Shown one piece after another: positions 6,568 through 47,188 of a stretch of 64,000 nucleotides of DNA; position 1 is the first letter of the stretch; each line of letters opens with the position of its first letter. The notes below the pieces were generated by a model, which ran no database searches, was not told where the DNA came from, and was given only the letters and a program-made list of their open reading frames with translations. Source of the stretch: a virus; IMG/VR virus record IMGVR_UViG_3300015265_000001, positions 1 to 64,000 of that record. One strand, written 5' to 3'. A program made the position numbers and the translations under genes.

Positions 6568-7911
6568 TTAGTTACTCACTACACCGTCTTGCAGCATTTG
6601 CCAGCGCGTCATGACCAGGATTTTCACCTTGCCAATACGACGAGCCACGTAGACCTTGCCGAAACGTTCGATCCGAGTGATGCCCTGAGGCGGCAGGCTG
6701 ATAGGGGTTACCACTTCAGCAGCAGCCAGCAGGTTCTCCATCTGACGAACGAATTCCATCGTGACGTCAGACATCAGACCGAAGTCTGGGTCGAGTGGAG
6801 AGATCATCGAATAATCCGGGAACAACGCAGTGATTTTCTCCATTCCTGCACGGTTGTTCAACTTAGCCACGAAGGCGCAGTTGAGCGACTTATACATGAA
6901 AGGAACCATCTGCATGGATTTTATGACGTGGTCTGACGTCATGTTCGGAGTCAGGTACTTGTCTACCAACACCATCATGGTTTCACGATCGGTGATTGGC
7001 GAGAACTGTTTTGCACCGTTGGCCTTGTTCAGCAAGCCATAGCGGTCAAAGCTCGGAATGACGTACCATTCCAACGGGTTGAACAGGTCCGGGATCTTCT
7101 CTTCCCAACGGTCACGACCGTAGATGGAGTGATCAAGGATCTCTTGTTGCAGTTGATCGAACAGCTGATCTTCTGCATCTTTACCGTTACCCCACCAGAT
7201 ATAGGTCCAGCTACCGACGTTGTAGCTTGGGGTGTTAATGAGGTCCATGATCTGGAACTCCAACACATCCCGGTCGGTATAGGGCCAGGCACTGTCGTTG
7301 TTCAGTGTCTTCAGGCGGTCTTCGATGACCTTAGGGGTTTCCAGCTTCAACCGTTTTTCAATCTGGTTGTAGTTGGCTTCCATCAGGAAGTCCATCTCAT
7401 CCAGCGGAAGAGGGTGGACGGCGGTGAACTTGACCCGTGGGAACTGATCCTGGAAATAGGCGTCAGCAAACCACAGGTAGAACTCTTGACGCTCACCCCC
7501 TACCAGATGCGCGCCTTGCACAAAGCTTGGCAACCAGATGGTGTTGTCGGTGACCATTTCGCCAACATCGGTAATTTCGATGTTGTTCGAGAAGTTGGCT
7601 TGCAGCAGGGCGAGAGTGTTTGGACGACTGCTGGTAATATTACCCAGCTTCGCTTGCGCATACAGCCAGTCGCTGATGTTGATCTGTACCAAGGCAATAT
7701 CGCTTGGCATCTTGATTTCAACGTCATCTTTCAGGCTGAGGAAGTTGACCAACTCAGTAACCGTAGCTGCGTCAGTACGGGTAAAGGTACCAGGGTCTTT
7801 CTGATAGCTCCTGGATTTATTGGAGAGTTCGCCCATTGGAGCAGCGTTCTCTGGATTGTTGTTATAAAGGGGTGATATACTTCCGAAAGACAAAAACATT
7901 GTAACGCTCAT
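6568..7911 (-). CDS. Probable virion structural protein
   Basis: 447 residues, no signal peptide, membrane segment or enzyme motif. Acidic, with many aromatic residues (WTYIWWGNG, LEWYVIPSFDRYG), as in structural proteins of large phages. The start at 7911 has GAGGTG about 7 bases upstream. It is the first gene of a two-gene leftward unit with the coiled-coil gene at 5825-6565 and diverges from the membrane-protein gene at 7944. The function is inferred from composition and from its pairing with the coiled-coil protein, not from a recognised family. Confidence 0.5.
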   Translation of the reverse strand: MSVTMFLSFGSISPLYNNNPENAAPMGELSNKSRSYQKDPGTFTRTDAATVTELVNFLSLKDDVEIKMPSDIALVQINISDWLYAQAKLGNITSSRPNTLALLQANFSNNIEITDVGEMVTDNTIWLPSFVQGAHLVGGERQEFYLWFADAYFQDQFPRVKFTAVHPLPLDEMDFLMEANYNQIEKRLKLETPKVIEDRLKTLNNDSAWPYTDRDVLEFQIMDLINTPSYNVGSWTYIWWGNGKDAEDQLFDQLQQEILDHSIYGRDRWEEKIPDLFNPLEWYVIPSFDRYGLLNKANGAKQFSPITDRETMMVLVDKYLTPNMTSDHVIKSMQMVPFMYKSLNCAFVAKLNNRAGMEKITALFPDYSMISPLDPDFGLMSDVTMEFVRQMENLLAAAEVVTPISLPPQGITRIERFGKVYVARRIGKVKILVMTRWQMLQDGVVSN

Positions 7912-7943: not shown

Positions 7944-8396
7944 ATGTTAGCGGTCTTTAGAGAGCTAACCAACAGATCTATAGAATTTGTACTCTCGTTG
8001 ACAAAGGGTGAAACACTTGAAGAGCAATTAACATCGGCCCTGAAGACCTTGATTTTCCTGGTTACCGTACTCATGTTTGTATCGACCAGTCTTGCGATTG
8101 CGAACTTCAACATGAGGACAGAGCTGGCGGATATGGAGGTGGGTATTTCTAAAGTTAACCTTTTGTTCGATGGGGATAACGGTGGGCCTATTAAAGGGTT
8201 CATTCGCATCAACGACATGCTGGCAGGTCAGAACATGGCCTTAAAGCAAGAAAATATCCTTTTCCTCAAGACTAACGCTCGTCTGCTCGAACAAAACCGT
8301 TGGTTGCGTTTGCAGCTTATCCAAGCACTGGACGAGAACATCCTCTTGCGGAAAAACAACAGTGTGCTGATGTTGAAGGTTCTGAAAAGTCCGTGA
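7944..8396 (+). CDS. Single-pass membrane protein with coiled-coil exterior domain
   Basis: 150 residues. One hydrophobic segment at about 35-54 (LKTLIFLVTVLMFVSTSLAI) follows a short N-terminal part. The C-terminal ~90 residues are helical and coiled-coil-like (LKQENILFLKTNARLLEQN). Basic residues before the segment suggest N-in, C-out, placing the coiled coil in the periplasm. That topology is the one of inner-membrane spanin subunits, but no lipoprotein partner or neighbouring lysis gene is visible, so this is only a possibility. It precedes the 505-residue gene by 60 bases on the same strand. Confidence 0.6.
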   Translation: MLAVFRELTNRSIEFVLSLTKGETLEEQLTSALKTLIFLVTVLMFVSTSLAIANFNMRTELADMEVGISKVNLLFDGDNGGPIKGFIRINDMLAGQNMALKQENILFLKTNARLLEQNRWLRLQLIQALDENILLRKNNSVLMLKVLKSP

Positions 8397-19940: not shown

Positions 19941-22900
19941 TCAGATGTTTACGCTGTTAGGCGCAGGCTCTGAGTTCTTCGCCATCTTTTCCAGCAGGCT
20001 ATGAATGCCAGCCAACAGTTGGTTGGTGTCACTCTGCTTACTTGTACCCTCACCGACAGCACTGGTGAGTTTCTCCATCAAGCCACCTGGATCTGCTGGG
20101 GCAGGCTCCTGGTTACTGGCTTGTTGTTTAGGCACTTGTTTGCCATAACCTTCTGGTAGAGGCTGACGATTACCCTGAGGAACATCGTTAGGACCAGCCA
20201 CAGGGCCTTGAGGGTTATCCGTGGTTCTGGCCCCGCCTGGCAACGGCAGGTTGGTGTATGGACCAGGGATTGCTCCCCCACCCGCTCCTGGTGCAGTTTG
20301 TGTACCACCTGCTTCAGGGGCATTGCTCTTCATTGCCGGAGTTGGAGTGGTCGTCGTGTCTGGCGGAGTCGACGGCATTTGACCTGGATCGTACTGCTGA
20401 TCTTTGGCTGTTACCGTACCGCCCGCTGTTGTATCCTGACCTGCTGGCTGAGCAGCACCGGCAGCTTGAGCAAACCTGTCAGCTGCTTCTTTGGACTTGA
20501 AGCCCACGTGCACATGACCACCAGTAGCACCAGCCGAAGCTTTAGCGTACTCGTTAAGCAACAGGAAGTCAGCAGGCCCCAGGTTAGCGGTCCGCAAGAT
20601 ACCTGCTACAATGCTCATGGCCTGACTAGCACCACTTGCACCGTTGGTCAAGGTAAAGTCCAACGCCAATCCTTGCGCGTGCTTGGATTGAGGTTTTACA
20701 CGTTGATGGTACGCGTCGTTCAACGCAGAGAAGTAACGGAAGTTAGGAACCTGAGTCTGGATCAGTTGCGCCAGACGGTTAATGCCAGGGTGAGCGTTAC
20801 CGCCCGCAATGGCCTCTCCTGACTTAAGACGCAAGCCACTCGAGTTAATACCCGTACCGCCACCTACCAGAGAACCAGGAGCCCCACCGCCGGCACCCGC
20901 CATACCACCGCTGTAGTCCGCACCACCGCCTCCTGGAGCCATCAAGCTTGGAGGAGTACCGTAGGCCGCCGCGTTACGCGAACCGCCACCAGGAGCCACA
21001 CCGATCGTTGGAGTGTTACCCCCACCAATGGTTGGACCCCCACCTCCGCCATACATCGAACCCGCACCCATGGTAGGTGCAACGTTCGTGCCTTGAGCGC
21101 TCGCATCATCCGCTTTCAACTGACCGCTGGTGAGTTGCTTCAGGTAGTCAGTGTAGAGCTGGAAGCGCTTAGGCATGCCTGGCAATGCATTACCACCATT
21201 CAAGCCGGTGGCCGCACGACCAAAGTCGCCGTCTGCTGTGATGCTTTGCAGGAGCTTACTGTTCTTGTAGAAGTTGACCGCAATCGCTGCCATAACGTTT
21301 GGATCGTTCGACGCCAGCTCTGGGTTGTTAACCAGGTCAATGCCCAGCTGTTGTCCAATGCGTGCGTACTGCGCCCGACCCGTCAGTTGTACCAAGCCAC
21401 GACCACGATACTTCCACCCATCCCCTGGGGCAACGTTGCCCAACGATTGACCTTTACCACCACCGTAAACAGTGTTGGCAATAGCCACAGGACCAGCCGC
21501 AATAAGCGCTCGCGCCTGTGCCAGACTAGTGACCTCACGGAAGGTCTTCATCAGGTTCTCAGGAGTGGTGTAGTTCATGTTTTCTACGGTACGACCAAAA
21601 CCACCGGTCTCGTAGTTGGTGAGCGCCAACATCTCAGCAATAGCGCGAGGGTCAGTAAAGCCCTGTTTCAACATCTCGCGAATGATGAGCTGTTCTGCCA
21701 ACGTTTTAGGGACCTTAACACCGTTATCCTTACCATCGGCCGCCTGCACGCCACTCAAGTCCAGGTGACTGGTGTCGCTGTCGCCTGTGAGCGGTTGGTA
21801 GCCGTAGGAATTACCCGGGGTCTGATAAGCACCGCCCAGGTTAAAGGTGTTGCCCGTACCTGAACCACGACTGGTACTTGTACCGTATTGCCCGCCCAAG
21901 GCAACGTCGCGACTATTTCTAGCCTTGCTCACATCATCGATGTTTGCTTGCTTCGTTGTAAAGTCACCACCCACCTTGCGAGGGGAGATTTCTTTAGCCC
22001 AGGCACTGGTACTGGTTTTCCCAGCTTCTTTCTCTGGATCCTTCAGCTTAGCCGTTGTACTCGCCTCACCCAGGATGTTCAGCATCCGGTCTACCCGGTC
22101 TGGCTTACCTGGAGACACGGAGTCTTTAAACGGAGCAGCCCTGACAACCCAAATCGGTACCAACAGCCCACGTCCTGGTTCCACCTTAGTCTCTACCAGC
22201 CCTCGGGCGATCTCGTAACGTGCAGTAACCGACAGCGTTCTCCAAACCACACCCGGGTTACCCCGACGGTAGTTTTGCATCAGGTTGAAGTAGTTGATGA
22301 GTACTGGCATGAACCGGTCTTTAAACCACCGGCACCAGTTGTCTGCATCACCTGCATCAAGGCGGAAGGAATCCTTGAAGATACCGAACATGTCACCGAC
22401 TTGACCTTTGAACTGAGCACCCCCTTCAGAAATCACCATCAGGGATTCGCAGTAGCGTTCCAGTTTCAGAACGGCTTCTACGCGCCAGGTTAGATCGAGG
22501 TCGTTACCGTAGCACGCCAAACGAATACCGGTGAGCATATCCACCGGACGGTTATCAGGCAGCAAGTCCTTGATAAAGACCTGAGCTGCAACCGCAGACA
22601 CCTTGTAGGTACTGTTCAGCTGATTAAGCTGATTGTTCACCTCACTCAGGCGCTTCTTCGCTGCATCGACGTTTTGGATACGTTCGTTACCACTGCCGAA
22701 AGCACTCAGCGGGCCGTTCAGTTTATCCTGGAGTGTCTGTTGTTCCTTTTGCAGCATGGCGACACTTTCAGGAGTTCTGATAGGTGCATCATCAGCTTTC
22801 GCATCGGTCTTGCGATCGATGTATTGCTTTAACTCTTCGAGCAAGTTGTTGCAACGGACAACGGTAGCCTTCTCGCCCAGCAGCGGGGTCTCCTGATCGA

Positions 22901-25900
22901 TCTTAGCCACAATCGAGTAAGGATACGGCATCACTGAACCGAGGGTCTGGTGGACCTGCTTAGCCACCTTGTAGACGTCTTGGCTAACCGCGTCGTCATA
23001 TTCCTTCAATGACTTCAACTTGATAACATCCAAGCAAGCCATGTAGGTCATGAAGACAGGTTTGAAACGACCGTTGAACCAACTGAACACGCTACCGATC
23101 TGCGTCTTGTCATTGGCGTTGGGGATGAAAGCTTGCAGAACTTCTTGCAACGGCGCATCCTTAGACAGCGATGCCTTGCCATTACCAATTACCACGAAGT
23201 CTTTCAGCTTCTCTTCAACCTGGAGAATCTTCTTCGCCAGATCGCTGTCTGGGTCAGACACACCGTATTGCGTCATGCGGAGTTCGTACTGCTTACCCGA
23301 ACCGCGTTTCACGTAACGATAAATGCCGTAACCAATCGCACCGACGGCGAGCACACCCAGCGTAATCGGGTTGAACAGCAGAGGAGCGGCCATGCCCCAT
23401 GCAGCCGAAGCCGCAGTCCCTGCACCTGCCGCCAGAGCACCTACCCCAATGTCTATCCCACCCGCCGCAGCAACGCTGGCTGCCATCTGGTAAGTACCCA
23501 AGGCGGTAGTTGCCGTACTCGCAATATCCCCAATCTTCTCCAGCGCCCCGCCTTCGTCGATCACGCCAGAACTGACTAGAGCATCAACACCCATACCCAC
23601 CGCAAGACCAGCTCCCACTTTCAAACCGCCGTTCTTGAAACGACCGTAATGGGATTTGCGACCAGCGCGGATCCTGTCGCGTTCAGCCTTGGTGCGCTTC
23701 TTACCACGAAGATGATCCAAAGCATCACCACCAGCGCCTGCCAGTCCTTCGCCACGAACCATGGCAAAGATCCCTTTAGCAATCGCCCCGATCCCTGTGG
23801 CGATAAACGGCAGAGTCTTGAGGCCCATACTGGCAAAGCTACCCAGAATCTTGAAGCTGTTCCACCACGAGCCGGTGAAGAACTTAGTCAGACCGAAGAT
23901 ACCGCCGGCAATTGCACCCAGACCGTCTTTCAACAGACCGAAGATGCCCTGACCTTTCTCCTTGTCTTTCTTATTCCCCCCACCAAAGAACCCCATACCC
24001 TGACTCATTTTGATCAAGGCATCTTTGGCGTCGCTGTCCTTCTTCTCTTTAGCCTTGGCGTCCTTATCGGCACGAGAGTTCAGTCGGACGTCTTGCTCGG
24101 GTTGCTCACCCAATTGCTCGCGAACACGCTTCTTGATTTCTTCGCTGACAGAACCGTAAGCACCACCCTTACCATTCCGATCGGCTTCTTCCCGACGTTC
24201 CACTTCCTCTGGGCTCACTTCTTGTTGCTGAGCGTTCTTCGGAATTTCCAGTGGATCGCCCTTACCGTCTTTCTTGTCATAAGCCGAGCCTTTCAGCTTA
24301 ACTTTCAACTTAGGCGGTTTGACTGGTGTTACGGGGATAGTGGTTTCCTCCCCGTCGACAACAGCGGGTGCAGTTGGAGCAGTCGGTACTTCCTCCTGGT
24401 ATCCCCAATGTTTCAACATCAGGTGGTAGATACGGTCAACCGAGTGAACGATCGGACTATAGTCAGCCTTAAAGACATTTGCAGCGCCGTCCTTAGCCTT
24501 ACCAAAGGCAGGAGCCGCTTTAGCCCTGGCTTTGTTGAACAGACCCATGGCCATAGAGCCGAAGCTCTTACCAGCCGCACCCAGCTTGTTGATGCTCACA
24601 CCCATCGAGGTTTTCAGACCGCGGTCGTATTCCTCTTGGGTAATGATGATCTCGCCATTCTCGTCATAGACGGGTCCGTCGATCTCATGCCAGCCGGTCA
24701 GCTGTACAGCCTGTCCACCTTCACCACGTTTCCAGTAAGCACCAGTGGCAAAGCGCTTACCGACCAAGGTAGGTGAACTTTCCCCTTCCTTGTAAACGTC
24801 CATCTGGTGGAAACGGTTAACGATCTTGTCCTTCAGCGCAACGGCTCGGCCAAATGGATCAGCCCAACGGAAAGCACGCATGGTCAAGTCGCGAATCTTG
24901 CTCAGGCCACTGAGGAGCACTTCCTTGTTCTCAGCAGTGAACAATTTCGCCGACAGACGACGAGCACCAATCACAACGCCGTTGTAGGCATCGGTACTGA
25001 TGATCTTGATGCTGCCGGTGATTTCGTTCCAGGCGTTAATGATCTTGTTCTTGGTCATGTCGTAATACTGACCGTCCTGGAGTCGCTTGGATTCCAGGAT
25101 AGGGGTATCCGACCCTTCCTCGTAGAGATCTTCAGTATCCTTGGCCGCCCGTGTCATTGCCATGCCGCGCAGTTTGCTGTAACCCACCGCAACGGCCGCA
25201 CCACCCGCCATCAAAGCAGCGGCTTTTGGATCGTGCAGGGCGTAGGTTGCCAGACCGCCCAACAGACCGCCCAGGATCAGCGGTTCTGCATCAAGCAGTT
25301 TACCCACACCCTTGTTGAACATGTCCTTCAGATTCGTTGCTTTCAACCGATCGATGATCGACCGCTTACCGGCTTCGATGTCCCGCTTGGCTTCTGGAGT
25401 ACTGTTCTTGCTGTTATCAGGCTGGCTGTTGAGGATGCGAGTCAGAAGGTCATTACGCTCCCCACCCATCTCCACCAAACGCTTAACCTGGTCGTTCAGA
25501 CTGCCGATGCCCGAAGTAACCGGCCCGAGGTCCAGCAACTGTCCCAGTGGGTGACTAGGACCCATGTTGTGAATCGCTGTCTTCAAATCACCCATTGACG
25601 CCAGGGATTCAGTCAGCTTGTCCATTCCTTGGACTTTAATGCCCTCTGCGGCTTCGTCTCCGCCGATTACAGGCGTTCTACCACCGAACTGCGGCACTGC
25701 GTAAGGGATGCCATTAAAACCGCCTGCACGAGTCGGTAGAGGTGCCTGATCAGGAACACCTTTATTACGACGACTTGGATCAGCGATGTAAGAAGCAATC
25801 GCCTGCTTGATCATGTCCATGTTGATGTCATCACGGTTATACTCATCCGTGACGATCAGACCTGATTCTTTCAGTGCGTCGTAACTGCCGGTGCCTTTAT

Positions 25901-27947
25901 GGATGTCCAGCTGTGCAGCAATGTCCGGAACCAGGTTACCCAGGCTACGAACAGCGTCAGCCACACCCACGACATTCTTCCGGGCCTTTTCAGTTGGCAG
26001 GTAACCCGCCATCTTGATCCGGTCCACATCACTACCCGTTTCGAAGTCGTTGATGTGTTTGTCGGTAATGTCGAAAGCAGCCTTCATGGCACGGCGGATT
26101 TCCTTAGCGATTTTTGGAGAGACATCGGAATGCTCATCCAGCTTCAGGAAGTTCCAAGGCGTGAACGCCTCTTCCTTATCGCTACCCATGATCAGTTCCA
26201 TCGCCAGCGCACGTTTGGCCTCAGGGCTGAGCGTGCCCATACCCAGTTGATCAATCGTGTCGGTGATGTTGTTCGAAGACTGAGCCACCGAACTGAAACT
26301 GTTACGATCCAGAACCTTGTTAACGACGTTGTTAACTTTCTGGTCATGGGTCATGAACCGCGCTTTCACGTAGTCATACGACATAGGCTTCAGACGGTCA
26401 TCACCAGTACGTTGTTTTTCCAACGACAAGTGAATCTGACTCAGCCACTGAGGAATGATTTCGTTCAGCGTGCGGTCACTGCGGCGGTTCCACTGAGCTT
26501 GCTCGTAGCTGTCAGCCAGCGTACGGTTAGTCAGGGAGTAACGGTTGCCGCTGCTGGACCAAGTGTTTTCATAGATCGAACCCAGGCCTTTGTTACCAGC
26601 TTTCTTCAAACCGGTCAGGACTTCCCATTCCAGTTTGGCAACAGGCTTAACACCAGGGGCCAGCGACGCCAGGTACTCATCGTAGTCAGCATGAGCATTC
26701 AGGTCCATGTCGCCGGCGTAGTGACGCTGCATGGCGTTGATCAAGCCAGTCGCGTTACCGGTGGTGTAGGTTGCGACGTTACCCAGGTCCTCCATTCGCT
26801 TATAGGCGTCTTCCGCCCACTTCGCTTGTTTCGGATAGTTCTTCTTGAACTTGGCCAGGTACTCACGCGCCTTACCAGACTTCAAGAGACGAGGGAGGTT
26901 GCTGATGAACAATCCAGCCGCCGCGTTACCAGCGATGTCGCCGAGATTGAGGTTCATACCCTCAGTCATTTCAGCAGCCATGCGGATAGAGCCTACAACG
27001 TCGCCTACGGCCTGTATCGAGTCACCCCTGGCGTCCTTACCGAACTTCTCGTTAATGAAGTCAGAGATACCGCCAAACTTGCTCTTGACGGTGTTGAAGA
27101 ACTCAGACCGAATTTGTTTGCGGATGGCTTGGCTGTGAGAGGTCTTCTCATAGTCGGACATCTTCGAGAATTCGCGGATGCTCTTCAGTTCGGTGATAAC
27201 CCGGTGCTGAGCCGCTTCCTGGAACTTGTAGTATTTAGCGTTCGTCAAGTACATCCGTGTCATGACGTTGAGTTGCATGGCGTCGTTGCGTGCCTGCACT
27301 CGGCGCTGATGATCGATCAGCTGTTCCATGAGTTGGTTATTGCGCACCAACGCACGGTTCAAGGTGTTCAAGCCACCGATGGTACGACCACCCACCTCAG
27401 ACATCATACTCATCGTACGGTCTGCGATGTTCTCCATGGTCTCGCGCTCTAACAGCGAGTTAGCCTCGCCGGCTTCGAGCACCATCTTGATCTCTTCTTC
27501 ACTGGTACCTTCCATCCGAGGAGTCTCTTCACCACTCGAAATATCGGGTTTTTCCCAGTCAGAGAAATCGTGATCACTGAATTTCATCAGTTGATCGGAG
27601 ATTTTATTAGGACCCCCTTTACCCAGTTTGGATGCGGCCCTTTTTGCGAGATACTGGAGATCCTGTACCGTCTGGTAACTTTCTCCCTTAATCTCCTCCA
27701 TCACCTCGCGGCGGCGCTGGTTCAGTTGAGCAACGTTACTGAACGCCCCGAGCCACGTATTGGGCAAAGCCATTTTGAGGGTGTTGATCCTGGCGTCTGT
27801 ATCGCCGATCGTTTTACCGACGACACCCGACAGGAAGCCTGTTGCGAAGCTTCTGACAAAACCATGTTTGGGTTTATCAAAATCGTCGTCAAAGTCTAGA
27901 TCGCCATCAAAGGGATCTTCACCCCATGAATCGAAATCATCGGCCAT
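19941..27947 (-). CDS. Giant tail lysin: GH19 plus M15 peptidase domains
   Basis: 2668 residues, the largest gene here. Recognisable parts: several hydrophobic segments at about 870-930, 1330-1400 and 1500-1570 (LLGGLATYAL; VLAVGAIGYGIYRYVKRG); a GH19 lysozyme/chitinase domain at about 2080-2270 (YETGGF, Glu near 2112; GRGLVQLTGRAQY; ENMNY); then a Gly/Pro/Ser-rich linker; and an M15-type metallopeptidase at about 2410-2500 (SKHAQGLALDF and GGHVHVGF supply His, Asp and His zinc ligands). The N-terminal 1500 residues resemble no known family. Expected role: local peptidoglycan digestion during DNA delivery, as for phiKZ gp181 and EL gp183, which also lie beside RNA polymerase genes. The start has AGGAG upstream. 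Confidence 0.9.
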   Translation of the reverse strand: MADDFDSWGEDPFDGDLDFDDDFDKPKHGFVRSFATGFLSGVVGKTIGDTDARINTLKMALPNTWLGAFSNVAQLNQRRREVMEEIKGESYQTVQDLQYLAKRAASKLGKGGPNKISDQLMKFSDHDFSDWEKPDISSGEETPRMEGTSEEEIKMVLEAGEANSLLERETMENIADRTMSMMSEVGGRTIGGLNTLNRALVRNNQLMEQLIDHQRRVQARNDAMQLNVMTRMYLTNAKYYKFQEAAQHRVITELKSIREFSKMSDYEKTSHSQAIRKQIRSEFFNTVKSKFGGISDFINEKFGKDARGDSIQAVGDVVGSIRMAAEMTEGMNLNLGDIAGNAAAGLFISNLPRLLKSGKAREYLAKFKKNYPKQAKWAEDAYKRMEDLGNVATYTTGNATGLINAMQRHYAGDMDLNAHADYDEYLASLAPGVKPVAKLEWEVLTGLKKAGNKGLGSIYENTWSSSGNRYSLTNRTLADSYEQAQWNRRSDRTLNEIIPQWLSQIHLSLEKQRTGDDRLKPMSYDYVKARFMTHDQKVNNVVNKVLDRNSFSSVAQSSNNITDTIDQLGMGTLSPEAKRALAMELIMGSDKEEAFTPWNFLKLDEHSDVSPKIAKEIRRAMKAAFDITDKHINDFETGSDVDRIKMAGYLPTEKARKNVVGVADAVRSLGNLVPDIAAQLDIHKGTGSYDALKESGLIVTDEYNRDDINMDMIKQAIASYIADPSRRNKGVPDQAPLPTRAGGFNGIPYAVPQFGGRTPVIGGDEAAEGIKVQGMDKLTESLASMGDLKTAIHNMGPSHPLGQLLDLGPVTSGIGSLNDQVKRLVEMGGERNDLLTRILNSQPDNSKNSTPEAKRDIEAGKRSIIDRLKATNLKDMFNKGVGKLLDAEPLILGGLLGGLATYALHDPKAAALMAGGAAVAVGYSKLRGMAMTRAAKDTEDLYEEGSDTPILESKRLQDGQYYDMTKNKIINAWNEITGSIKIISTDAYNGVVIGARRLSAKLFTAENKEVLLSGLSKIRDLTMRAFRWADPFGRAVALKDKIVNRFHQMDVYKEGESSPTLVGKRFATGAYWKRGEGGQAVQLTGWHEIDGPVYDENGEIIITQEEYDRGLKTSMGVSINKLGAAGKSFGSMAMGLFNKARAKAAPAFGKAKDGAANVFKADYSPIVHSVDRIYHLMLKHWGYQEEVPTAPTAPAVVDGEETTIPVTPVKPPKLKVKLKGSAYDKKDGKGDPLEIPKNAQQQEVSPEEVERREEADRNGKGGAYGSVSEEIKKRVREQLGEQPEQDVRLNSRADKDAKAKEKKDSDAKDALIKMSQGMGFFGGGNKKDKEKGQGIFGLLKDGLGAIAGGIFGLTKFFTGSWWNSFKILGSFASMGLKTLPFIATGIGAIAKGIFAMVRGEGLAGAGGDALDHLRGKKRTKAERDRIRAGRKSHYGRFKNGGLKVGAGLAVGMGVDALVSSGVIDEGGALEKIGDIASTATTALGTYQMAASVAAAGGIDIGVGALAAGAGTAASAAWGMAAPLLFNPITLGVLAVGAIGYGIYRYVKRGSGKQYELRMTQYGVSDPDSDLAKKILQVEEKLKDFVVIGNGKASLSKDAPLQEVLQAFIPNANDKTQIGSVFSWFNGRFKPVFMTYMACLDVIKLKSLKEYDDAVSQDVYKVAKQVHQTLGSVMPYPYSIVAKIDQETPLLGEKATVVRCNNLLEELKQYIDRKTDAKADDAPIRTPESVAMLQKEQQTLQDKLNGPLSAFGSGNERIQNVDAAKKRLSEVNNQLNQLNSTYKVSAVAAQVFIKDLLPDNRPVDMLTGIRLACYGNDLDLTWRVEAVLKLERYCESLMVISEGGAQFKGQVGDMFGIFKDSFRLDAGDADNWCRWFKDRFMPVLINYFNLMQNYRRGNPGVVWRTLSVTARYEIARGLVETKVEPGRGLLVPIWVVRAAPFKDSVSPGKPDRVDRMLNILGEASTTAKLKDPEKEAGKTSTSAWAKEISPRKVGGDFTTKQANIDDVSKARNSRDVALGGQYGTSTSRGSGTGNTFNLGGAYQTPGNSYGYQPLTGDSDTSHLDLSGVQAADGKDNGVKVPKTLAEQLIIREMLKQGFTDPRAIAEMLALTNYETGGFGRTVENMNYTTPENLMKTFREVTSLAQARALIAAGPVAIANTVYGGGKGQSLGNVAPGDGWKYRGRGLVQLTGRAQYARIGQQLGIDLVNNPELASNDPNVMAAIAVNFYKNSKLLQSITADGDFGRAATGLNGGNALPGMPKRFQLYTDYLKQLTSGQLKADDASAQGTNVAPTMGAGSMYGGGGGPTIGGGNTPTIGVAPGGGSRNAAAYGTPPSLMAPGGGGADYSGGMAGAGGGAPGSLVGGGTGINSSGLRLKSGEAIAGGNAHPGINRLAQLIQTQVPNFRYFSALNDAYHQRVKPQSKHAQGLALDFTLTNGASGASQAMSIVAGILRTANLGPADFLLLNEYAKASAGATGGHVHVGFKSKEAADRFAQAAGAAQPAGQDTTAGGTVTAKDQQYDPGQMPSTPPDTTTTPTPAMKSNAPEAGGTQTAPGAGGGAIPGPYTNLPLPGGARTTDNPQGPVAGPNDVPQGNRQPLPEGYGKQVPKQQASNQEPAPADPGGLMEKLTSAVGEGTSKQSDTNQLLAGIHSLLEKMAKNSEPAPNSVNI

Positions 27948-27974: not shown

Positions 27975-29591
27975 ATGAAACCCACAAACCTTACGTTGCT
28001 GGACTTTAACAAGATCGGGCCACCTGTGTTTAAGCCGGTGACGTCCACTGACGCGTTTGAAGGCATGACCAAAGACCTCAATGACGAAGGTCTGTACTCG
28101 TTGGAAATCTTTGGCAAGATGGGTAGCAAACAACGCGACGAAACCGAAGCGTACATTGACACCAAATTAGAAATTTTCAACCCAACTTACTTTAAAGCGA
28201 TGATTCAAACAAAGTCGCTTTACCTCGGAATTCTCAAAGGCACGGAATATGCCGTCTGGGACCCACAGGCCAAAGATTTCATAAAATCCAACCTCATCGA
28301 AGGTGAGACCGGTTTCAGTTTCTTTGCCAGTCATTTCAAAGAACTGATGCCAAGTTTGACCGACAGTTATAAGCGTAAGCAAAAGGTGGAGTTGGTGCAG
28401 CGGTTCAAGCCTATTGCGCTGGCTGCAAAGGTTTTGGTTCCACCAGCTGGTTTGCGGGATATCGAATTCCAACCGGACGGGTCTACTGTGGAGCCGGAAA
28501 TCACCGACCTCTACCGTAAACTGTTGTTCCGTACCCGAGTGGTCACTTTGGGTGTTCGGGAGGATGCGGAGAATCCACTGTACGATACCGTACGTTGGGG
28601 TTTGCAAAACTCCTACAACGACATCGATCAATACCTGTTCGATTTGATGGACGGTAAGTCGGGTCTTTTCCAACGTCGTGTTTCGACACGTGGTGTGGTG
28701 TCGGGTACACGTAACGTTATTACCGCGCGTAAGGTCTCCAGAGAGCACTTGTACAAAGGGAACGGGGTAAACCCCAACTCGGTGGACATGGGTCTCTATC
28801 AGGCGCTGCTGAACTTCCAGTACGTCTGTATTCATGCACTGCTCACCAAGTACCTTGGCGATATCTTTGCCACGGGCTCCCAAAACGTCAAGCTGGTTAA
28901 CACCAAGACCTTGGAGTACGAATATGTCGAAGTCTCAGCAAGTGTTGTCGAAAAGTGGTCAACTGCCACCGGCATCTCCAAACTCTTTAACGGATTTGGT
29001 AACGCAAGACTCCGTTCCAAGCCCATCATCCTTTCTGGGCACTATCTGGCGCTGGTGTACGACGACGGTCATGATGTTTGTGTCCTGAGTGACATCAATG
29101 ATTTGCCAGCAGGAAAAGATCGCAAACTGGTGACTCCAATCACCTACATGCAACTTTATTATCTCTCCTGCCACAAAGTTATTGGTGAGCAAGTTTCTCA
29201 GCAGACGCGTTATCCAGTAATCGGTATCGGTTCGATCTTCCCGGCCAAAGTTAACCTCCTCAGTATCGAAGGGGCTAAACCGCGAATGATTCGGGATGCC
29301 GAATGGAACGAGGTCGAAGAGTGCCTGCGTTATCCGCACAACGTTGATAAGCCGGACTACTATGACGCCATGTCGGTAGACCCAAGTCGTGAAGCCGGTC
29401 TTGATTCCGACCACGACGGTGACATGCTCAACAGTAACAGTGTGTGCGCTGAAGACAGTAAAGCTCAAGTGGCTGATCTCTTCGGTAAGCGCGAGTACTA
29501 CATCAGTGGCAGCGGTCGGTTCCTGTATGACCCTGTGAACGAACCCATCTTGTTTATGCTCAAAGCCGCCACCAGCGGTATGGAGAGTTAA
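27975..29591 (+). CDS. RNA polymerase beta' subunit, N-terminal piece
   Basis: 538 residues. Residues 477-483 (DSDHDGD) replace the catalytic NADFDGD of beta', giving three aspartates at 479, 481 and 483 that bind the active-site magnesium. Before them, RYPVIGIGSIFPAKVN corresponds to the RxPTLHR segment. The N-terminus (IGPPVFKPVTSTDAFEGMT) looks like the beta' clamp start. The product ends just after the metal loop, so beta' is split here; its C-terminal partner is outside the window. In phiKZ, gp180 is the equivalent virion-polymerase subunit and lies next to a tail-lysin gene, as here. The gene is divergent from the tail lysin, with a 27-base gap. Confidence 0.88.
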   Translation: MKPTNLTLLDFNKIGPPVFKPVTSTDAFEGMTKDLNDEGLYSLEIFGKMGSKQRDETEAYIDTKLEIFNPTYFKAMIQTKSLYLGILKGTEYAVWDPQAKDFIKSNLIEGETGFSFFASHFKELMPSLTDSYKRKQKVELVQRFKPIALAAKVLVPPAGLRDIEFQPDGSTVEPEITDLYRKLLFRTRVVTLGVREDAENPLYDTVRWGLQNSYNDIDQYLFDLMDGKSGLFQRRVSTRGVVSGTRNVITARKVSREHLYKGNGVNPNSVDMGLYQALLNFQYVCIHALLTKYLGDIFATGSQNVKLVNTKTLEYEYVEVSASVVEKWSTATGISKLFNGFGNARLRSKPIILSGHYLALVYDDGHDVCVLSDINDLPAGKDRKLVTPITYMQLYYLSCHKVIGEQVSQQTRYPVIGIGSIFPAKVNLLSIEGAKPRMIRDAEWNEVEECLRYPHNVDKPDYYDAMSVDPSREAGLDSDHDGDMLNSNSVCAEDSKAQVADLFGKREYYISGSGRFLYDPVNEPILFMLKAATSGMES

Positions 29592-29595
29592 AGGT

Positions 29596-32500
29596 ATGAA
29601 TATCCCACCGGCGATTACGCTGAGTCCCCTAGACGCTGTAACGGGGGAAGAAGCACTGTACCCCCAGTTCTACCGCGCCTTCGTGCAGCGGAAGCGTCAA
29701 GAGTTGATCGCCCCTGTATTCATCGGGATTGGCGAGATCATCTTGCCACGTTCCTCGCTGCTTCACTTCTTTCCAAGCAATCCACAAGAGATCGGTCCTT
29801 CGGTTTCTGAAGCGTTTATCAGCAACTATCCAGATGACGTGTTCATCGAGTTCCCGGCTAAGTACACCCCGGTGATTGGTAACGGTCGTGCTGTACAGAT
29901 CGAAGCCCGCAAGATCATCACCGGTTACCGTGGTACTCATTACAAGTACAACTGGACCAAAGACATCAACACGGTCTACAACAAAGAGAAGGTGCTGGTT
30001 GTTAAGAGCTACGGCCTCGCCGATCTTCTCTGGCACCCACGGGCTTCTCTGTTCATCAACTTCGAGCGGTATTACAACCACTTCAACCTGTTGATGGATG
30101 GCGTTAACGAAGAAGCTACTCGGGCAAAGCGGCGTAAGCAGTTCTACCGCATTGACCTGCCGCTGCACATGCCGTCTTTTACCGACCTGATGATCGACTA
30201 CGACCATTACGTTGGGAGTTTCCGTAACGGCTTGCCGCTGGCCAGCAACAAGACCGTACGGACCACCAAGCAAGAGAACTCCTACTGGTTGATGGACTGG
30301 ATGGCGTTCCTGTTTGGCGACTACGAGTACAGCTTGCTGAACAAGTTGTCTGCTGAAGCGATCGAAGATTTCCACCTGATCTTCGTATTCAACAGCCGTG
30401 CACTGGTGATTCACCTGGGTACGCTGAAAGGGTGGTTGGATGCCGAACTGGATCCAAAGGCAAAACTATCCGACAAGAGTTCGCCACAGAGCGAGCGAGA
30501 AAAGCACAGTAAACGTTTGAACGCGTCCAAGCGTGTTTATTTAGCCTTGCTTAACCTTACCCGAGGTGGTGTCTCGGAGGAGGAAGTGGTAAAAGAAGGA
30601 GAGTCGGATGAACGAGGAGAAAAAGCAGCGTCGGCTGAGCATGTGGCTGCAAAAGAGACGGGAACTCCGAAAGGGCAAAGTCAAGCACCCCATCGATCCG
30701 GAGAAGGAACGGTTCCTGGCAAAAATGACAAGCGGCCAGCTGCTACTCATTCTGATCCTCTCCGTGATGCTTTCGGTGGTGGTAAAGGAGCTGACGACGG
30801 AGTTCATGAAGGGGCCGGACAAGCGGGAGACGGAGCAAATCCTGAAAGCACTGAAGACTGGACATCCCATGTAGATGACCGCTTGCTCGAACAAGAGAAA
30901 GTGGTTGCTGAGGTCTCGGTCAAGAAGGATCCGTTTCCAAAGCTTGAAAGTGGTGTACAGGCAGCGTTGGAAGCCAAGACCCGCGAAAGCGGCATGACTG
31001 TCGCCGAGCAACAGTTCTTCATGCGTAAGGGTACTCAGGTTTATCACATCGAAATGGGTAACGGTCAGAGTCTGGCTGAATTCATGGAGATCAAACCTGA
31101 GGAGCTGAAGTCGCTTAAGGCGGACGGGAAGATCCAGGGTAACTTTACCACGATCAACGACACGTCTATGCTTGAGAGTCGTGCCAAGGTCTTGAAGCAG
31201 GGCTATGTGAACAAGTTCCTGCATAAGGACTACGCGACCATGGCAGTCGGCATTCAAAACGCCGGCTTTGCTTTGAACGACTATCGTCATGAAGTGGTAG
31301 AGGGCCCTGAAGGTTCCTACGATGTATTGACTATTCAGGTTCATCACCCTGATGGCGAACAGTCGACTCACCCGATTCGTTTCCCTAAGGTGAGTAACGA
31401 CGACGCTTCCTTTACGGTCGACGGCGTTAAGTCCCACCTCCAACTGCAACGCATGGAGCTGCCGATCCGCAAGATCGATGCAAGCACTGTGCTGTTGACA
31501 TCTCACTACGACCGCCAGTTGATGGTGACCCGTAGCAAGAAGGTGGTGGACGACCTGGGCGTGTGGATGAAGAAGCAGATCTTGTTGCGCGCTATGGCGA
31601 ACAAGGAGATCACTCTGAGTCGTGGTACCGGTCGCAGTCGCGAACACATCGGTCCTCGCATCTACAGCATCCTGGCGGGCAGCTTCCAGTGGATCAATGT
31701 CGGCGGTTACATGCTGGACTTCCGCATCGACAAGTTGCTGGAGGAGCATCCGGAGTTCAAGAAACTCACCAAGACAGACATGTTCCTGGTGGGGGTCAAG
31801 GACAAGAAGCCGATCACCATTGACAGCTACGGTTATCTCTACCTCGACGGTGTTGAGTTCAGCTCCTTCGAAGAGCTGATGGGGATCAACTTCAGCAAAG
31901 CGCCTAACGAACACGCCGTGATCAACATCAGCGGCTATCCGTTCCCTCTGGGTGTTGTGCTGTGCTACTACTTCGGGATTGATGAGCTGTTGAAAGTCAT
32001 CAAGGCTACCACCCGGACTGTGCCAATGGGAACCCGTCCAAAGCTGGCTGATGACGAGTACGCCATCCAGTTCAACGACGAGTACCTGATCTTTAACCGT
32101 CGTGAGAAGTTGACGACGTTGATCTTTGGCGGGATGCCTAAGCTGACCAACATCAGTAACTTCAGCCGAAGTGATCTGAACAGCCAAAACATCTGGGGCC
32201 CTCTGATGGGGGATCCAAAGGTACGGCCGGGTCAGTTCCTGGAAATGAACCTGCTTTACAAAATGTTCATCGATCCAATCACCAAGAAACAATTGGCTGG
32301 TATGGGTTACAGCGAGTCGTTCCATTACTTGCTCATCGATGCTGCTCGACTGTTGGAAACCGACTATACCCGTCATGAGGTAGAAATCGAGGAACAACGC
32401 TTTGTCGGGTATGAACGTTTTGCTGGGCACTTCTACAAGGTCATGGTGGGGGCTGCACGTCAGTTCTTTAACAAGGGTAAGGGTCGTAAGCAAAAGCTTG

Positions 32501-33969
32501 AGATCAATCCTGAAGCTGTGATCATGGCAATCCTCAAGGACACTTCGGTGAACCGTGTGGAAGAAGTGAACCCTATCCACCAGTTGAAGGATCAGGAAGA
32601 ATTGACCTTTGGCGGTACTGGTGGGCGCAGCGAAATCACTGTGGTTAAACGTGCTCGTGTACAACTGCCTACCTATCGCGGTAAGGTCTCTGAGGCGAAC
32701 AAGGACAGCGGTAAGGTAGGGTTTGTAACCTACACGACTTCTGACCCGTTGGTTCTTGACTACCGTGGCAATATCGACACCAAGAGTGAACCGTCTCCGA
32801 CTTCGCTGTATTCGGTCACGGGTAACCTGGCATTCGGTATGAATAAGGATGACACCAAGCGGGGGATGTTTACCTCGACTCAGGCGTCTCAGGCAGTAAG
32901 CGCTGAAAACTACACCATGCCGATTACCCGCACGGGCTATGATAACATCATTGCTCACCGGACCTCCGAACTCTACAGCAAGGTTGCTAAAGAGGACGGT
33001 AAGGTTACTGCGGTTGAAGCTGACCATCTGGAGATTACCTACACTGACGGCACTGCTGAGAAGTATCCGTTGGGTCTGGTGATTGGTGAAGCGAGCGGTG
33101 AATACCATCGTCACACCCGTGTTACCGATTTGAAAGTCGGCGACAAGTTTGTTAAGGGTGATGTGGTAGGTTGGGACAAGCAGTGGTTTGCACGTGACCC
33201 ATTCTGCCCGGGTCAGGTGACTTGGCTTAACGGCCGTCAAGTTCGTATTGCGCTGGTAGAAGACCAGGACACCTACGAGGACTCCATCGCTGTTTCTAAA
33301 GCGATTATGGAAGAATCGATTACCCCGTTTATTACGAAGAACACTTTCGTAGTGGATGTGGATAAAGTTGTGACCTTCCGGGTTAAACAAGGTGACCAGA
33401 TCGACTACGACGCGATTTTATGCGAGATTGAAGAAAGCCACCTGGCGGGGGTGGGAGAGGCCTCCACGCAAGTCGACGATATCAACCGTTTGGGGATCAA
33501 ACAACACCGCTCCAAGCACCACGGCGAGGTGGTCAAGATCGAAGTGCTTTACAACTCGCCTATGGAAAACATGTCTGACAGTGTGCGTAAACTGGTCGTC
33601 GCTGGCGACAAAGAACGTAAGCGCATGTCCTCGATTGATGGCAGCTTCCCAACAGGTAACGTGGGTAACAACCTTAACGTGGCTAAACCTGTATTGTCAC
33701 CAGGAAAGGTATTGTTTACTGTCTACGTGGAATCGATGGACGGGTCTACGACTTCGGACAAGTACGTAATCGGTAACCAGATGAAGGGTACCGTCAACGG
33801 TGTGATGAAGAAACCGTTGATGACTCAAGATGGTCGTGTGGTGGACGTCAAGTGTAGTTTTAAAGGCGGCTTTAACCGCATGGTATTGAGCTTACGTGAT
33901 CGACTGGGTACAAGTGAACTGTCGGTTGGGGTTACCAAACAGGCTATTGCCATTTACAGGGGTAAGTAA
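29596..33969 (+). CDS. RNA polymerase beta subunit body with an N-terminal extension
   Basis: 1457 residues. Beta-type segments: FTVDGVKSH near 610 (cf. beta FVINGTERV), DDTKRGMFTSTQASQAVS (cf. beta DADRALMGSNMQRQAVP), TYEDSIAVSKAIMEES near 1225 (cf. YNFEDSILVSERV) and GNQMKGTVNGVM near 1392 (cf. GDKMAGRHGNKGV). The extreme C-terminus is missing and is supplied by 12887-13567. About 325 residues at the N-terminus plus a hydrophilic linker (about 325-430) have no counterpart in beta; in phiKZ a separate gene lies between the two subunit genes, so this may be a fusion. The linker region also holds a second gene in another frame (30608-30874). Starts 5 bases after the beta' gene. Confidence 0.85.
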   Translation: MNIPPAITLSPLDAVTGEEALYPQFYRAFVQRKRQELIAPVFIGIGEIILPRSSLLHFFPSNPQEIGPSVSEAFISNYPDDVFIEFPAKYTPVIGNGRAVQIEARKIITGYRGTHYKYNWTKDINTVYNKEKVLVVKSYGLADLLWHPRASLFINFERYYNHFNLLMDGVNEEATRAKRRKQFYRIDLPLHMPSFTDLMIDYDHYVGSFRNGLPLASNKTVRTTKQENSYWLMDWMAFLFGDYEYSLLNKLSAEAIEDFHLIFVFNSRALVIHLGTLKGWLDAELDPKAKLSDKSSPQSEREKHSKRLNASKRVYLALLNLTRGGVSEEEVVKEGESDERGEKAASAEHVAAKETGTPKGQSQAPHRSGEGTVPGKNDKRPAATHSDPLRDAFGGGKGADDGVHEGAGQAGDGANPESTEDWTSHVDDRLLEQEKVVAEVSVKKDPFPKLESGVQAALEAKTRESGMTVAEQQFFMRKGTQVYHIEMGNGQSLAEFMEIKPEELKSLKADGKIQGNFTTINDTSMLESRAKVLKQGYVNKFLHKDYATMAVGIQNAGFALNDYRHEVVEGPEGSYDVLTIQVHHPDGEQSTHPIRFPKVSNDDASFTVDGVKSHLQLQRMELPIRKIDASTVLLTSHYDRQLMVTRSKKVVDDLGVWMKKQILLRAMANKEITLSRGTGRSREHIGPRIYSILAGSFQWINVGGYMLDFRIDKLLEEHPEFKKLTKTDMFLVGVKDKKPITIDSYGYLYLDGVEFSSFEELMGINFSKAPNEHAVINISGYPFPLGVVLCYYFGIDELLKVIKATTRTVPMGTRPKLADDEYAIQFNDEYLIFNRREKLTTLIFGGMPKLTNISNFSRSDLNSQNIWGPLMGDPKVRPGQFLEMNLLYKMFIDPITKKQLAGMGYSESFHYLLIDAARLLETDYTRHEVEIEEQRFVGYERFAGHFYKVMVGAARQFFNKGKGRKQKLEINPEAVIMAILKDTSVNRVEEVNPIHQLKDQEELTFGGTGGRSEITVVKRARVQLPTYRGKVSEANKDSGKVGFVTYTTSDPLVLDYRGNIDTKSEPSPTSLYSVTGNLAFGMNKDDTKRGMFTSTQASQAVSAENYTMPITRTGYDNIIAHRTSELYSKVAKEDGKVTAVEADHLEITYTDGTAEKYPLGLVIGEASGEYHRHTRVTDLKVGDKFVKGDVVGWDKQWFARDPFCPGQVTWLNGRQVRIALVEDQDTYEDSIAVSKAIMEESITPFITKNTFVVDVDKVVTFRVKQGDQIDYDAILCEIEESHLAGVGEASTQVDDINRLGIKQHRSKHHGEVVKIEVLYNSPMENMSDSVRKLVVAGDKERKRMSSIDGSFPTGNVGNNLNVAKPVLSPGKVLFTVYVESMDGSTTSDKYVIGNQMKGTVNGVMKKPLMTQDGRVVDVKCSFKGGFNRMVLSLRDRLGTSELSVGVTKQAIAIYRGK
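30608..30874 (+). CDS. Nested membrane-protein gene inside the beta linker
   Basis: An 88-residue frame in a different phase from the beta gene, lying exactly in its low-complexity linker. It starts ATG 30608 with a strong ribosome site (AAGGAGAG, 6 bases upstream). The N-terminus is very basic (EEKKQRRLSMWLQKRREL); a hydrophobic span at about 45-64 (GQLLLILILSVMLSVVVKEL) is a clear membrane helix; the C-terminus is short and charged. Predicted N-in, C-out. No family recognised; it lies 3 kb upstream of the endolysin gene, so a lysis role is possible but unproven. Confidence 0.6.
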   Translation: MNEEKKQRRLSMWLQKRRELRKGKVKHPIDPEKERFLAKMTSGQLLLILILSVMLSVVVKELTTEFMKGPDKRETEQILKALKTGHPM

Positions 33970-33971
33970 AG

Positions 33972-34898
33972 ATGAGCTTCCGGACAGTCAACGGGGTTAA
34001 AGACATTCAAGTGGTTCTCGGTGAGGGCCAAGTCTACCCCGGCGGTATTGACGGTGTCTGGGGAAATGGAAGTCGGGATGGGGTCCTGAAGTTGTTTCAG
34101 GACTACCACCTGTTCCTCAACGGGGGGCGCTCTGTGCCCCTGCCTGTTGCCTCAGGAGCTGGTTACGATGTTGCAGTACAAGCGATCAAGGATATCCAGA
34201 GCAACCTGAAGTTGGTAGGTCTCTATTCGGGTGCCGTTGATGGCATCCCAGGTAACGGCAGCATCGGCGGTCTGCGTCAATTGCTGTTCAGTTATGTCAA
34301 GCGTAACAAGCTGCCGTTCTACGACCTCGGTTGGAGTAAGCTGGTTCCTCCGGCTTTCGCTCAGAAGGTTCGTGACTGGTGCACCAAGAACAACATGTTC
34401 CCGGGTGCGGCTTCTGCGCTGATGGCATGCATGCACTTCGAATCGGGTGGTACCTTCCGCCCTGATAAGCAGAACAACGGCGGCAGCAACTACTGGGGTC
34501 TGATCCAATTCGGTAAGGACGCAGTCGCTGACCTGGCGAAAACCTATGGGTTGAAGATTACCCTGGACGACGTCAAGGCCATGAGCCAACTGGATCAACT
34601 CGATCTGGTGTTCAAGTATTTCGAAATGTGGCAAAAGCGCGGCAAGGTTTACAAGCGCCTCGAAGACTTCTATCTGACGATCTTCTATCCTGCTGCGGTG
34701 GGTAAAGGTCCAGACGAAGTTCTGTTCAGCAAAGATTCTCCGGTGCCCATCATTGCCAAGTCTTACCTGCAAAACAACGGGTTCGACATCAACAAGGATG
34801 GTGACATCACCGTAGGCGAGATCTGTACTCGTCTCTACGACACGTATTACACCGGGATGTCGGTCAAGAACCGTGTCTCCAGTCCTAACCCACTCTAA
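33972..34898 (+). CDS. Endolysin, EL188-like lytic transglycosylase
   Basis: 308 residues. Two peptidoglycan-binding repeats at about 10-48 and 70-108 (GIDGVWGNGSRDGVLKLF and AVDGIPGNGSIGGLRQLL), then a transglycosylase domain with MHFESGG (Glu157 likely catalytic), NYWGLIQFG and FKYFEMW. It matches the layout of EL188 (about 290 residues, N-terminal wall binding, C-terminal catalysis). Cleaves peptidoglycan at lysis. No signal peptide, so release needs a holin or similar. It follows the beta gene with a 2-base gap, so it is transcribed with the polymerase gene. Confidence 0.85.
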   Translation: MSFRTVNGVKDIQVVLGEGQVYPGGIDGVWGNGSRDGVLKLFQDYHLFLNGGRSVPLPVASGAGYDVAVQAIKDIQSNLKLVGLYSGAVDGIPGNGSIGGLRQLLFSYVKRNKLPFYDLGWSKLVPPAFAQKVRDWCTKNNMFPGAASALMACMHFESGGTFRPDKQNNGGSNYWGLIQFGKDAVADLAKTYGLKITLDDVKAMSQLDQLDLVFKYFEMWQKRGKVYKRLEDFYLTIFYPAAVGKGPDEVLFSKDSPVPIIAKSYLQNNGFDINKDGDITVGEICTRLYDTYYTGMSVKNRVSSPNPL

Positions 34899-34919: not shown

Positions 34920-35096
34920 ATGACTGATAAAGAGCAACTCATCACCAACATCATCACGGGTGCGAATACCGTGGAGGTGGTTAAACGGACCCTCGCCAAA
35001 GTAGGGTTGCAATTCCTTGCCCCTCTGAGTGAGTCGGTGCTGGATGAAAAGATCAGCAAGGCCATCACTGGTCGTGTCCAAGGAGCGTCGAAATGA
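34920..35096 (+). CDS. Small protein next to the endolysin
   Basis: A 58-residue frame with AGGAGATCGG upstream. A weakly hydrophobic middle (VGLQFLAPLSESVLD) but no strong membrane span. Its stop overlaps the start of the next gene (ATGA at 35093), so translation is coupled. Position between endolysin and a downstream gene invites a lysis-related guess, but the hydrophobicity is too low to call it a holin. Confidence 0.6.
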   Translation: MTDKEQLITNIITGANTVEVVKRTLAKVGLQFLAPLSESVLDEKISKAITGRVQGASK

Positions 35097-45489: not shown

Positions 45490-45954
45490 ATGCGATTGCT
45501 TACCGCGCTGTTTCTTATCCTTGTTTCGGTAACCGCCCATGCCGGAATCATGGCTGGCATTCCTAAGGATAAGCAAGAAGATGTTCTGTTAAGTTGTGAC
45601 ACAGAAGCCGCCAAAAGCCTGCTAGTTCTGCGTGACACCGAGACAGACACCTTCACGATACTCTACGGCAAGGACTTGATCCAGCCGGAGCAGACCATCG
45701 TTAAGCAGGGCAACGACATGGGCACCTCCTATCACCATTCAGCGGCGGAAGCAACCGACACTCGAGAGATCTACTCGGCGGATGGAAAGGAGTTCACTAC
45801 AGTGGGCTACATGGATAAGGGCGGTGTCCTCTCGGCGTACTACAAACTGCAAACAGGCGTGACGGTGTTGATCTCGGACAAGTGTACTGCGGCTAGTATC
45901 AGCAGTGCGTTTGATTTCTCTGAGCACTTCGCCAACATGACTGAGGTCGATTAA
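45490..45954 (+). CDS. Exported protein with a signal peptide and two cysteines
   Basis: 154 residues. The N-terminus (MRLLTALFLILVSVTAHA) is a classic cleavable signal peptide with AHA at the cut after residue 18. The mature part is about 136 residues, with Cys36 and Cys132 that could form a disulfide in the periplasm. AAGGAG upstream. Phage proteins exported early often act on the cell envelope or block superinfection, which is a guess here. No family recognised. Flanked by terminators on both sides, so it is a single-gene unit. Confidence 0.68.
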   Translation: MRLLTALFLILVSVTAHAGIMAGIPKDKQEDVLLSCDTEAAKSLLVLRDTETDTFTILYGKDLIQPEQTIVKQGNDMGTSYHHSAAEATDTREIYSADGKEFTTVGYMDKGGVLSAYYKLQTGVTVLISDKCTAASISSAFDFSEHFANMTEVD

Positions 45955-46759: not shown

Positions 46760-47188
46760 ATGTCAGAGCTCATCATGGATTTGATAACGGTCATGATCTG
46801 GCTATCCGTTATTGTCTTACTGGTAGTCAGGAAGAAGGAACGCCGTGGTTTGCTCTATGGTCTGACTTTAACCGACGATGGTTTGACGTTCTGGTACAGA
46901 TTGGGAATCTACGCCGGGACAGTAACAATGGTTCGCGACATAACGGTAAAGGAGCCGCAACTTTCTGGAAACGTTGTGGGTTGGCTATGTCGATTCCCTG
47001 TTCGCTACACGAACAAGGAGATGTGTGACTACATCAGGATGTACGCCCCTTTCTGTTCTGATAAGACACCTCACTCAAAAGACCTTTGGATCTTCAACGA
47101 GGTGGTTAATCGAAACAACAATGCTTTGATCAGCGTCTATGGTCAGATCTTTGTGTTTGACAATCGCGACGGTAAGGGCTTTTATTGA
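46760..47188 (+). CDS. Membrane-anchored protein
   Basis: 142 residues. One hydrophobic helix right at the N-terminus (residues 5-22, IMDLITVMIWLSVIVLLV), then RKKERR, placing the rest in the cytoplasm (positive-inside). The C-terminal domain of ~115 residues has no known motif. It pairs with the upstream unknown gene and ends at the hairpin at 47197-47236. Confidence 0.6.
   Translation: MSELIMDLITVMIWLSVIVLLVVRKKERRGLLYGLTLTDDGLTFWYRLGIYAGTVTMVRDITVKEPQLSGNVVGWLCRFPVRYTNKEMCDYIRMYAPFCSDKTPHSKDLWIFNEVVNRNNNALISVYGQIFVFDNRDGKGFY

Follow-up and report, generated by a model that had tools for sequence, protein, structure and literature searches.

Does an open reading frame that lies wholly within an RNA polymerase gene of a giant phage encode a protein of its own, and, if so, what would that protein do upstream of an endolysin gene? 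The question was raised by a sequence-only reading of a 64,000-nucleotide stretch of viral DNA (here called the window), which proposed that a membrane-protein gene is nested in the gene for the polymerase beta subunit. The virus record containing the window is 226,985 bases long, i.e., that of a jumbo phage. Our answer, taken as a whole, is that the nested ORF would be an overprinted gene for a single-pass inner-membrane protein with a holin-type function, a statement to which, function included, we assign a probability of about 0.5; its parts differ in strength and are graded separately.

The nested reading frame and its surroundings

The host gene, on the plus strand at 29596–33969, encodes a virion-type RNA polymerase beta subunit resembling phiKZ gp178 (phrog_3148, 1418 bits), and among described phages its product is closest to the beta subunits of Pseudomonas phage EL (tblastn, 55%) and Erwinia phage RisingSun. 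Three genes of the same strand and cluster surround it: upstream, a second polymerase subunit resembling phiKZ gp180 (27975–29591; phrog_2986); starting 2 nt past the beta stop, an EL188-like endolysin (33972–34898), identified by a family profile match, with Pfam Phage_lysozyme2 and PG_binding_1 below threshold only; and, after the endolysin, a 58-amino acid soluble virion-type protein (34920–35096; phrog_17945) without a membrane segment (Kyte-Doolittle maximum 0.86). Two ORFs make up the beta gene in EL (L015) and FishSpeaker (L022), as they do in L107, L111, and L112; in EL and FishSpeaker, an HNH endonuclease gene interrupts the upstream polymerase subunit, and these features together suggest that mobile introns or inteins are active in the polymerase genes.

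The nested ORF occupies 30608–30874 on the plus strand and comprises 88 codons in the +1 frame relative to beta. Its ATG at 30608 is preceded, 6 nt upstream, by an AAGGAG ribosome-binding site seen in the sequence (30596–30601), and its TAG stop (30872–30874) is formed from the GTA GAT (Val-Asp) codons of the beta WT..VDD motif; RNA folding at the start is not unusual (z −0.14). Most of the low-complexity linker of beta lies under the ORF, and the remainder of beta separates it from the endolysin by ~3.1 kb. A membrane-spanning helix is predicted for codons 42–67 (30731–30808, plus strand) by both Kyte-Doolittle hydropathy, whose strongest 19-residue window scores 2.35, and AlphaFold2, and T-ending beta codons underlie it. 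The strong ribosome site, the basic N-terminus, the membrane helix, and the placement over the beta linker upstream of the endolysin, all claimed in the sequence-only reading, were thus found as described.

Across the lineage, the predicted protein is ~80–110 amino acids long, with a basic N-terminus and one membrane helix. In its consensus, the basic N-terminal half carries W-L-x2-R, the helix contains L-S-L-(M)-F-S and is preceded by F-L-A and followed by K-x-L, and the charged tail includes E-x-R-E-x-E-x-I-L; the tail after the helix is ~20–30 residues in most members and ~20 in the 88-residue protein of the window. AlphaFold2, run on an alignment from which three rows were left out, gave helices at residues 2–25, 42–67, and 70–83 with moderate confidence (mean pLDDT 70, pTM 0.30), the second being the best-scored part of the model. 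That the product is a membrane protein is very probable. In membrane proteins, the basic side stays cytoplasmic (the positive-inside rule), and on this rule plus hydropathy, we infer a cytoplasmic N-terminus, i.e., an N-in/C-out orientation. Because the model shows only helices and had no match in BFVD, the predicted fold gives no indication of function.

The sequence-only reading had also suggested that the factor could be undescribed, and this held up: no sequence relatives were found in Pfam, PHROGs, or PDB, and no CDS is annotated at the nested place in the records of 16 carrier phages (EL, GXNNE2, RisingSun, pTD1, OBP, Miami, FishSpeaker, N1M2, AH04, PS1, Survivor, D3, ZPAH34, PDCC-1, Kc263, and Sureiya). 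A full-text literature search that covered few subscription journals or preprints likewise found no published report of the nested gene.

Conservation and constraint of the nested frame

Every distinct beta gene with an available linker and at least 38% identity, 35 in all (EL, RisingSun, OBP, pTD1, Miami, and others), contained the +1 ORF, these carriers spanning 38–87% beta identity. To test this expectation as a prediction, eight more phages were retrieved later, and it held in 8/8: AH04, Survivor, Kc263, Sureiya, PDCC-1, ZPAH34, and PS1 were positive by profile, and the ORF of D3 was recognised by inspection. Even when built solely from the EL/RisingSun side, a profile matched most of the new phages as well as pTD1, OBP, Miami, FishSpeaker, and N1M2, with E-values of 1e-11 to 1e-5, PS1 giving just 0.025. 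A tblastn search of phages with the window's own nested copy found no match, as the protein is too diverged for a single-sequence search. In most relatives, a Shine-Dalgarno-like site and ATG are recognisable and the stop uses the same GTA codon at the WT..VDD motif; the starts are ambiguous in OBP-like members. L046 was at one point scored as lacking the ORF, but inspection showed it to be there with a weakly hydrophobic helix. Loss of the start, or stop codons in the nested frame of close relatives, had been named beforehand as the result that would count against the gene; the comparison was run and the ORF survived it.

By contrast, none of 38 more distant beta genes, most of them with comparable linkers, contains such an ORF (phiKZ, SPN3US, Noxifer, Psa21, CR5, FLC8, Eowyn, Special G, and IMG/VR contigs). 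Stand-alone homologues were absent from phiKZ, SPN3US, Special G, Noxifer, FLC8, CR5, Eowyn, and Psa21, and no convincing second copy was found in carrier genomes, XC32 and N1M2 giving just weak secondary matches with stops inside. At 6815–6943 of L061, and at the same place in L063, L108, and L113 (AH04), no stop interrupts the +1 frame ahead of the usual start either, and this region contains a second segment of high hydrophobicity (Kyte-Doolittle ~3) that no obvious ATG precedes.

Could a low-complexity linker simply happen to leave its +1 frame open and hydrophobic? When the linkers of 25 beta genes were shuffled synonymously, an open +1 frame alone was fairly often to be expected (P 0.02–0.94). 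The length of the nested ORF therefore proves little, and open-frame length was rejected as stand-alone evidence. An open frame combined with an equally strong membrane segment was much rarer, with P < 0.01 in most of the 25 genes, although P reached 0.14 in the OBP-like genes. Nor was a product of stop-codon probabilities accepted as a P value, since the genes share ancestry and a stop in the +1 frame can only be built from codons of this kind.

The pattern of substitutions is more telling. In a +1 overlap, the third position of a beta codon is the second position of a nested codon. Among the six closest genes, third positions account for 0.68 of beta differences in the N-terminal part and 0.69 in the C-terminal part, but for only 0.19 inside the nested ORF; similarly, synonymous and non-synonymous codon differences in the beta frame number 3617 and 1364 in the C-terminal part versus 75 and 437 inside the ORF. 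When the window is compared with its five closest relatives, identity is 80–87% for the +1 protein, whereas over the same stretch it is 58–63% for the beta frame and 59–66% for the +2 frame; of the differences, 0.47–0.57 are silent in the +1 frame, against ~0.26 expected, and control stretches of the same beta gene show the opposite pattern. Third-position substitution, proposed in advance as a check, thus flips to the +1 frame exactly over the nested ORF in close relatives and nowhere else. From these identities, +1-silent differences, and the third-position flip, the nested frame is the one under stronger protein-level constraint, the overlapped beta linker being freer to change.

An overprinted gene is recognised either by protein-level selection on both frames of the shared DNA or by conservation of its new frame together with frame-specific substitutions, and the second pattern is seen here. 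Against a chance ORF, the frame-flipped substitutions are decisive unless an RNA element mimics codon-position constraint; the conservation across such divergent betas, the success of the out-of-sample prediction, and the absence of any such ORF from comparable linkers elsewhere in the family point the same way. It is on conservation and the frame-specific pattern that we exclude chance, which is left with a very small probability, and on the same comparisons, the nested ORF is almost certainly a real overprinted gene. The proposal of a membrane-protein gene nested in a polymerase gene is strongly supported in this respect.

Order of events at the locus

Overprinting had been invoked to explain the unusual composition of the beta linker. 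As an account of why the linker exists, this failed: betas without the nested gene have similar linkers (85–219 amino acids between the same anchors), so the linker is probably older and permitted the overprinting, which would have followed it. As an account of local composition, it stood, as 48–71% of beta codons end in T under the membrane helix compared with 18–42% elsewhere in beta (ranges of per-gene values).

A beta tree, rooted at its midpoint, was made from the core columns that follow the linker; in it, the carriers form one side of a single branch (SH-aLRT 100), requiring one change. From this tree, the nested gene appears to have arisen once, in the ancestor of the EL/RisingSun/OBP/pTD1/Miami lineage. 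Its nearest non-carriers, Special G and SA002, both have an endolysin after beta without the nested gene, and the simplest order of events is linker, endolysin insertion, and then a single overprinting. Alternatively, the nested gene may have been lost in the Special G/SA002 branch.

A possible role in lysis

In all 35 carriers, again by family profile match, no more than a few bases separate the beta stop from the start of an endolysin gene; of the 37 testable non-carriers of the same set, only one (Special G) has such an endolysin. The endolysin has no signal or membrane segment by hydropathy and, if it follows the canonical pathway, would need a holin (PMC6139136). Within the co-directional cluster at 28–44 kb, the nested ORF is the sole strongly hydrophobic small protein; it has one membrane helix, as a holin must have at least one, although that of L046 is weak, and it is encoded together with the endolysin. 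It cannot, however, be filed in any known holin family because nothing in Pfam or PHROGs matches it, nor did its fold match a holin in BFVD; searches of carrier phages with four holin Pfam families gave no match over the cut-off.

The literature searched names no holin for EL/OBP-like phages, making the nested gene a concrete candidate. As we picture it, the protein would be translated by independent initiation on the polymerase–endolysin mRNA, would insert N-in/C-out in the inner membrane, and would either give the cytoplasmic EL188-like endolysin access to the cell wall or set the timing of that access; if one mRNA served for it, for a virion protein, and for the endolysin, its amount would be coupled to late gene expression. 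A lysis or envelope role, as first suggested, plausibly fits the neighbourhood, and a holin-type role specifically has an even chance of being correct. Weighing against it, the endolysin association represents one evolutionary event in one clade, Special G and SA002 manage an endolysin without the nested gene, and no holin resembles it in sequence or fold; the holin could instead be some other membrane protein, encoded elsewhere in the genome. We are slightly more tentative about the broadest form of the proposal, that a holin-type protein overprinted lineage-wide on the virion polymerase gene is the missing holin and ties lysis to virion production.

Other genes of these phages bear on the cell envelope. 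In OBP and its relatives (L020, L061, L063, L108), the post-beta endolysin matches the EL188-type family weakly (168–272 bits versus 340–440) and has a different catalytic half; the enzyme was swapped and the overprinted gene kept. In the window, a 2668-amino acid tail-fibre-family protein (19941–27947, minus strand; phrog_3201) contains an endolysin-like (GH19/chitinase-type) domain at about residues 2090–2304, implying a second wall-cutting enzyme in the tail. Two neighbouring plus-strand genes encode putative exported or membrane proteins, one of 154 amino acids with a signal-peptide-like N-terminus (45490–45954) and one of 142 with an N-terminal membrane anchor (46760–47188). A 150-amino acid protein (7944–8396, plus strand) has one membrane helix (about residues 35–53) and, after it, a lengthy heptad-like stretch with the look of a coiled coil; its architecture makes it an i-spanin-like candidate, possibly another lysis gene of this phage.

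The nested protein might itself be a lysis regulator, or be i-spanin- or antiholin-like, modulating lysis rather than opening the inner membrane. It does have a single helix with its N-terminus inside by the positive-inside rule, an adjacent endolysin gene, and an embedded gene, as is usual among spanins (PMC6139136). An i-spanin, however, has an N-terminal helix and a long periplasmic coiled coil, whereas here the helix occupies residues 42–67 of 88, the ~20–30-residue tail is too short for a coiled coil spanning the periplasm, and the 7944–8396 product is the better candidate; we consider this reading distinctly improbable.

A role in infection or envelope takeover, e.g., as an inner-membrane anchor for the polymerase or for a compartment of early infection, in superinfection exclusion, or in altering the host membrane, would draw on the same gene-level evidence of conservation and frame-specific substitutions. 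The phiKZ homologue of the host gene is annotated as a structural head protein, and a virion polymerase is injected together with the phage DNA, which would make a membrane partner encoded at that locus reasonable. Nor does the strongly basic N-terminal half resemble a minimal holin. However, no nested ORF exists in the polymerase genes of 38 tested relatives, phiKZ and SPN3US among them, and the protein is thus not a general partner of the polymerase; the ORF is moreover limited to the lineage with the adjacent endolysin. This role is unlikely, if less so than that of a regulator.

Whatever its role, the nested gene would give at least 10 described phage genera, among them those of the model phages EL and OBP, a conserved protein family that annotation has missed. 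The best-known cases of overprinting come from very small genomes, whereas the genomes that keep it here are ~200–285 kb in size, the overlapped gene encodes an RNA polymerase subunit, and constraint is stronger on the overprinted frame than on the older one. In large phages, genuine genes are hidden when gene callers discard nested ORFs, and the codon-position flip among relatives offers a recipe for finding further overprinted genes.

The holin reading can be set beside several known systems. T4 holin T, of class III, has one membrane helix, an N-in/C-out topology, and a large periplasmic domain; the nested protein shares the single helix and, by hydropathy and the positive-inside rule, the orientation, but has only its short tail in place of that domain, and no carrier phage searched gave a match to PF11031 over the cut-off. 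In EL and OBP, the beta gene with the nested ORF directly precedes the genes for EL188 and OBPgp279, endolysins that have been described (PMC3352856), while the nested gene at these loci went unannotated. Lambda Rz1, part of a lysis cassette, likewise lies in the +1 frame of another gene, Rz, in a double-stranded DNA phage (PMC6139136), but it is a lipoprotein embedded in a second lysis gene and not a single-pass membrane protein embedded in a polymerase gene. A further parallel is gene E of phiX174, nested in D, whose hydrophobic helix is supplied by older-frame codons that end in T (PMC8227390). In both cases, a virion-assembly gene carries, in a second frame, an overprinted gene for a small membrane protein with one helix, and T-ending codons lie under that helix. 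The two have no sequence relation, and the helix is central here and N-terminal in E; here, the genome is 200–285 kb, the host gene is an RNA polymerase subunit, and lysis is a putative function. Since the phages studied here also encode an endolysin, E-type lysis by blocking wall synthesis is unlikely. Nested lysis-type genes as such were already known; what appears to be new is this family, together with the gene that hosts it and its presence in giant phages.
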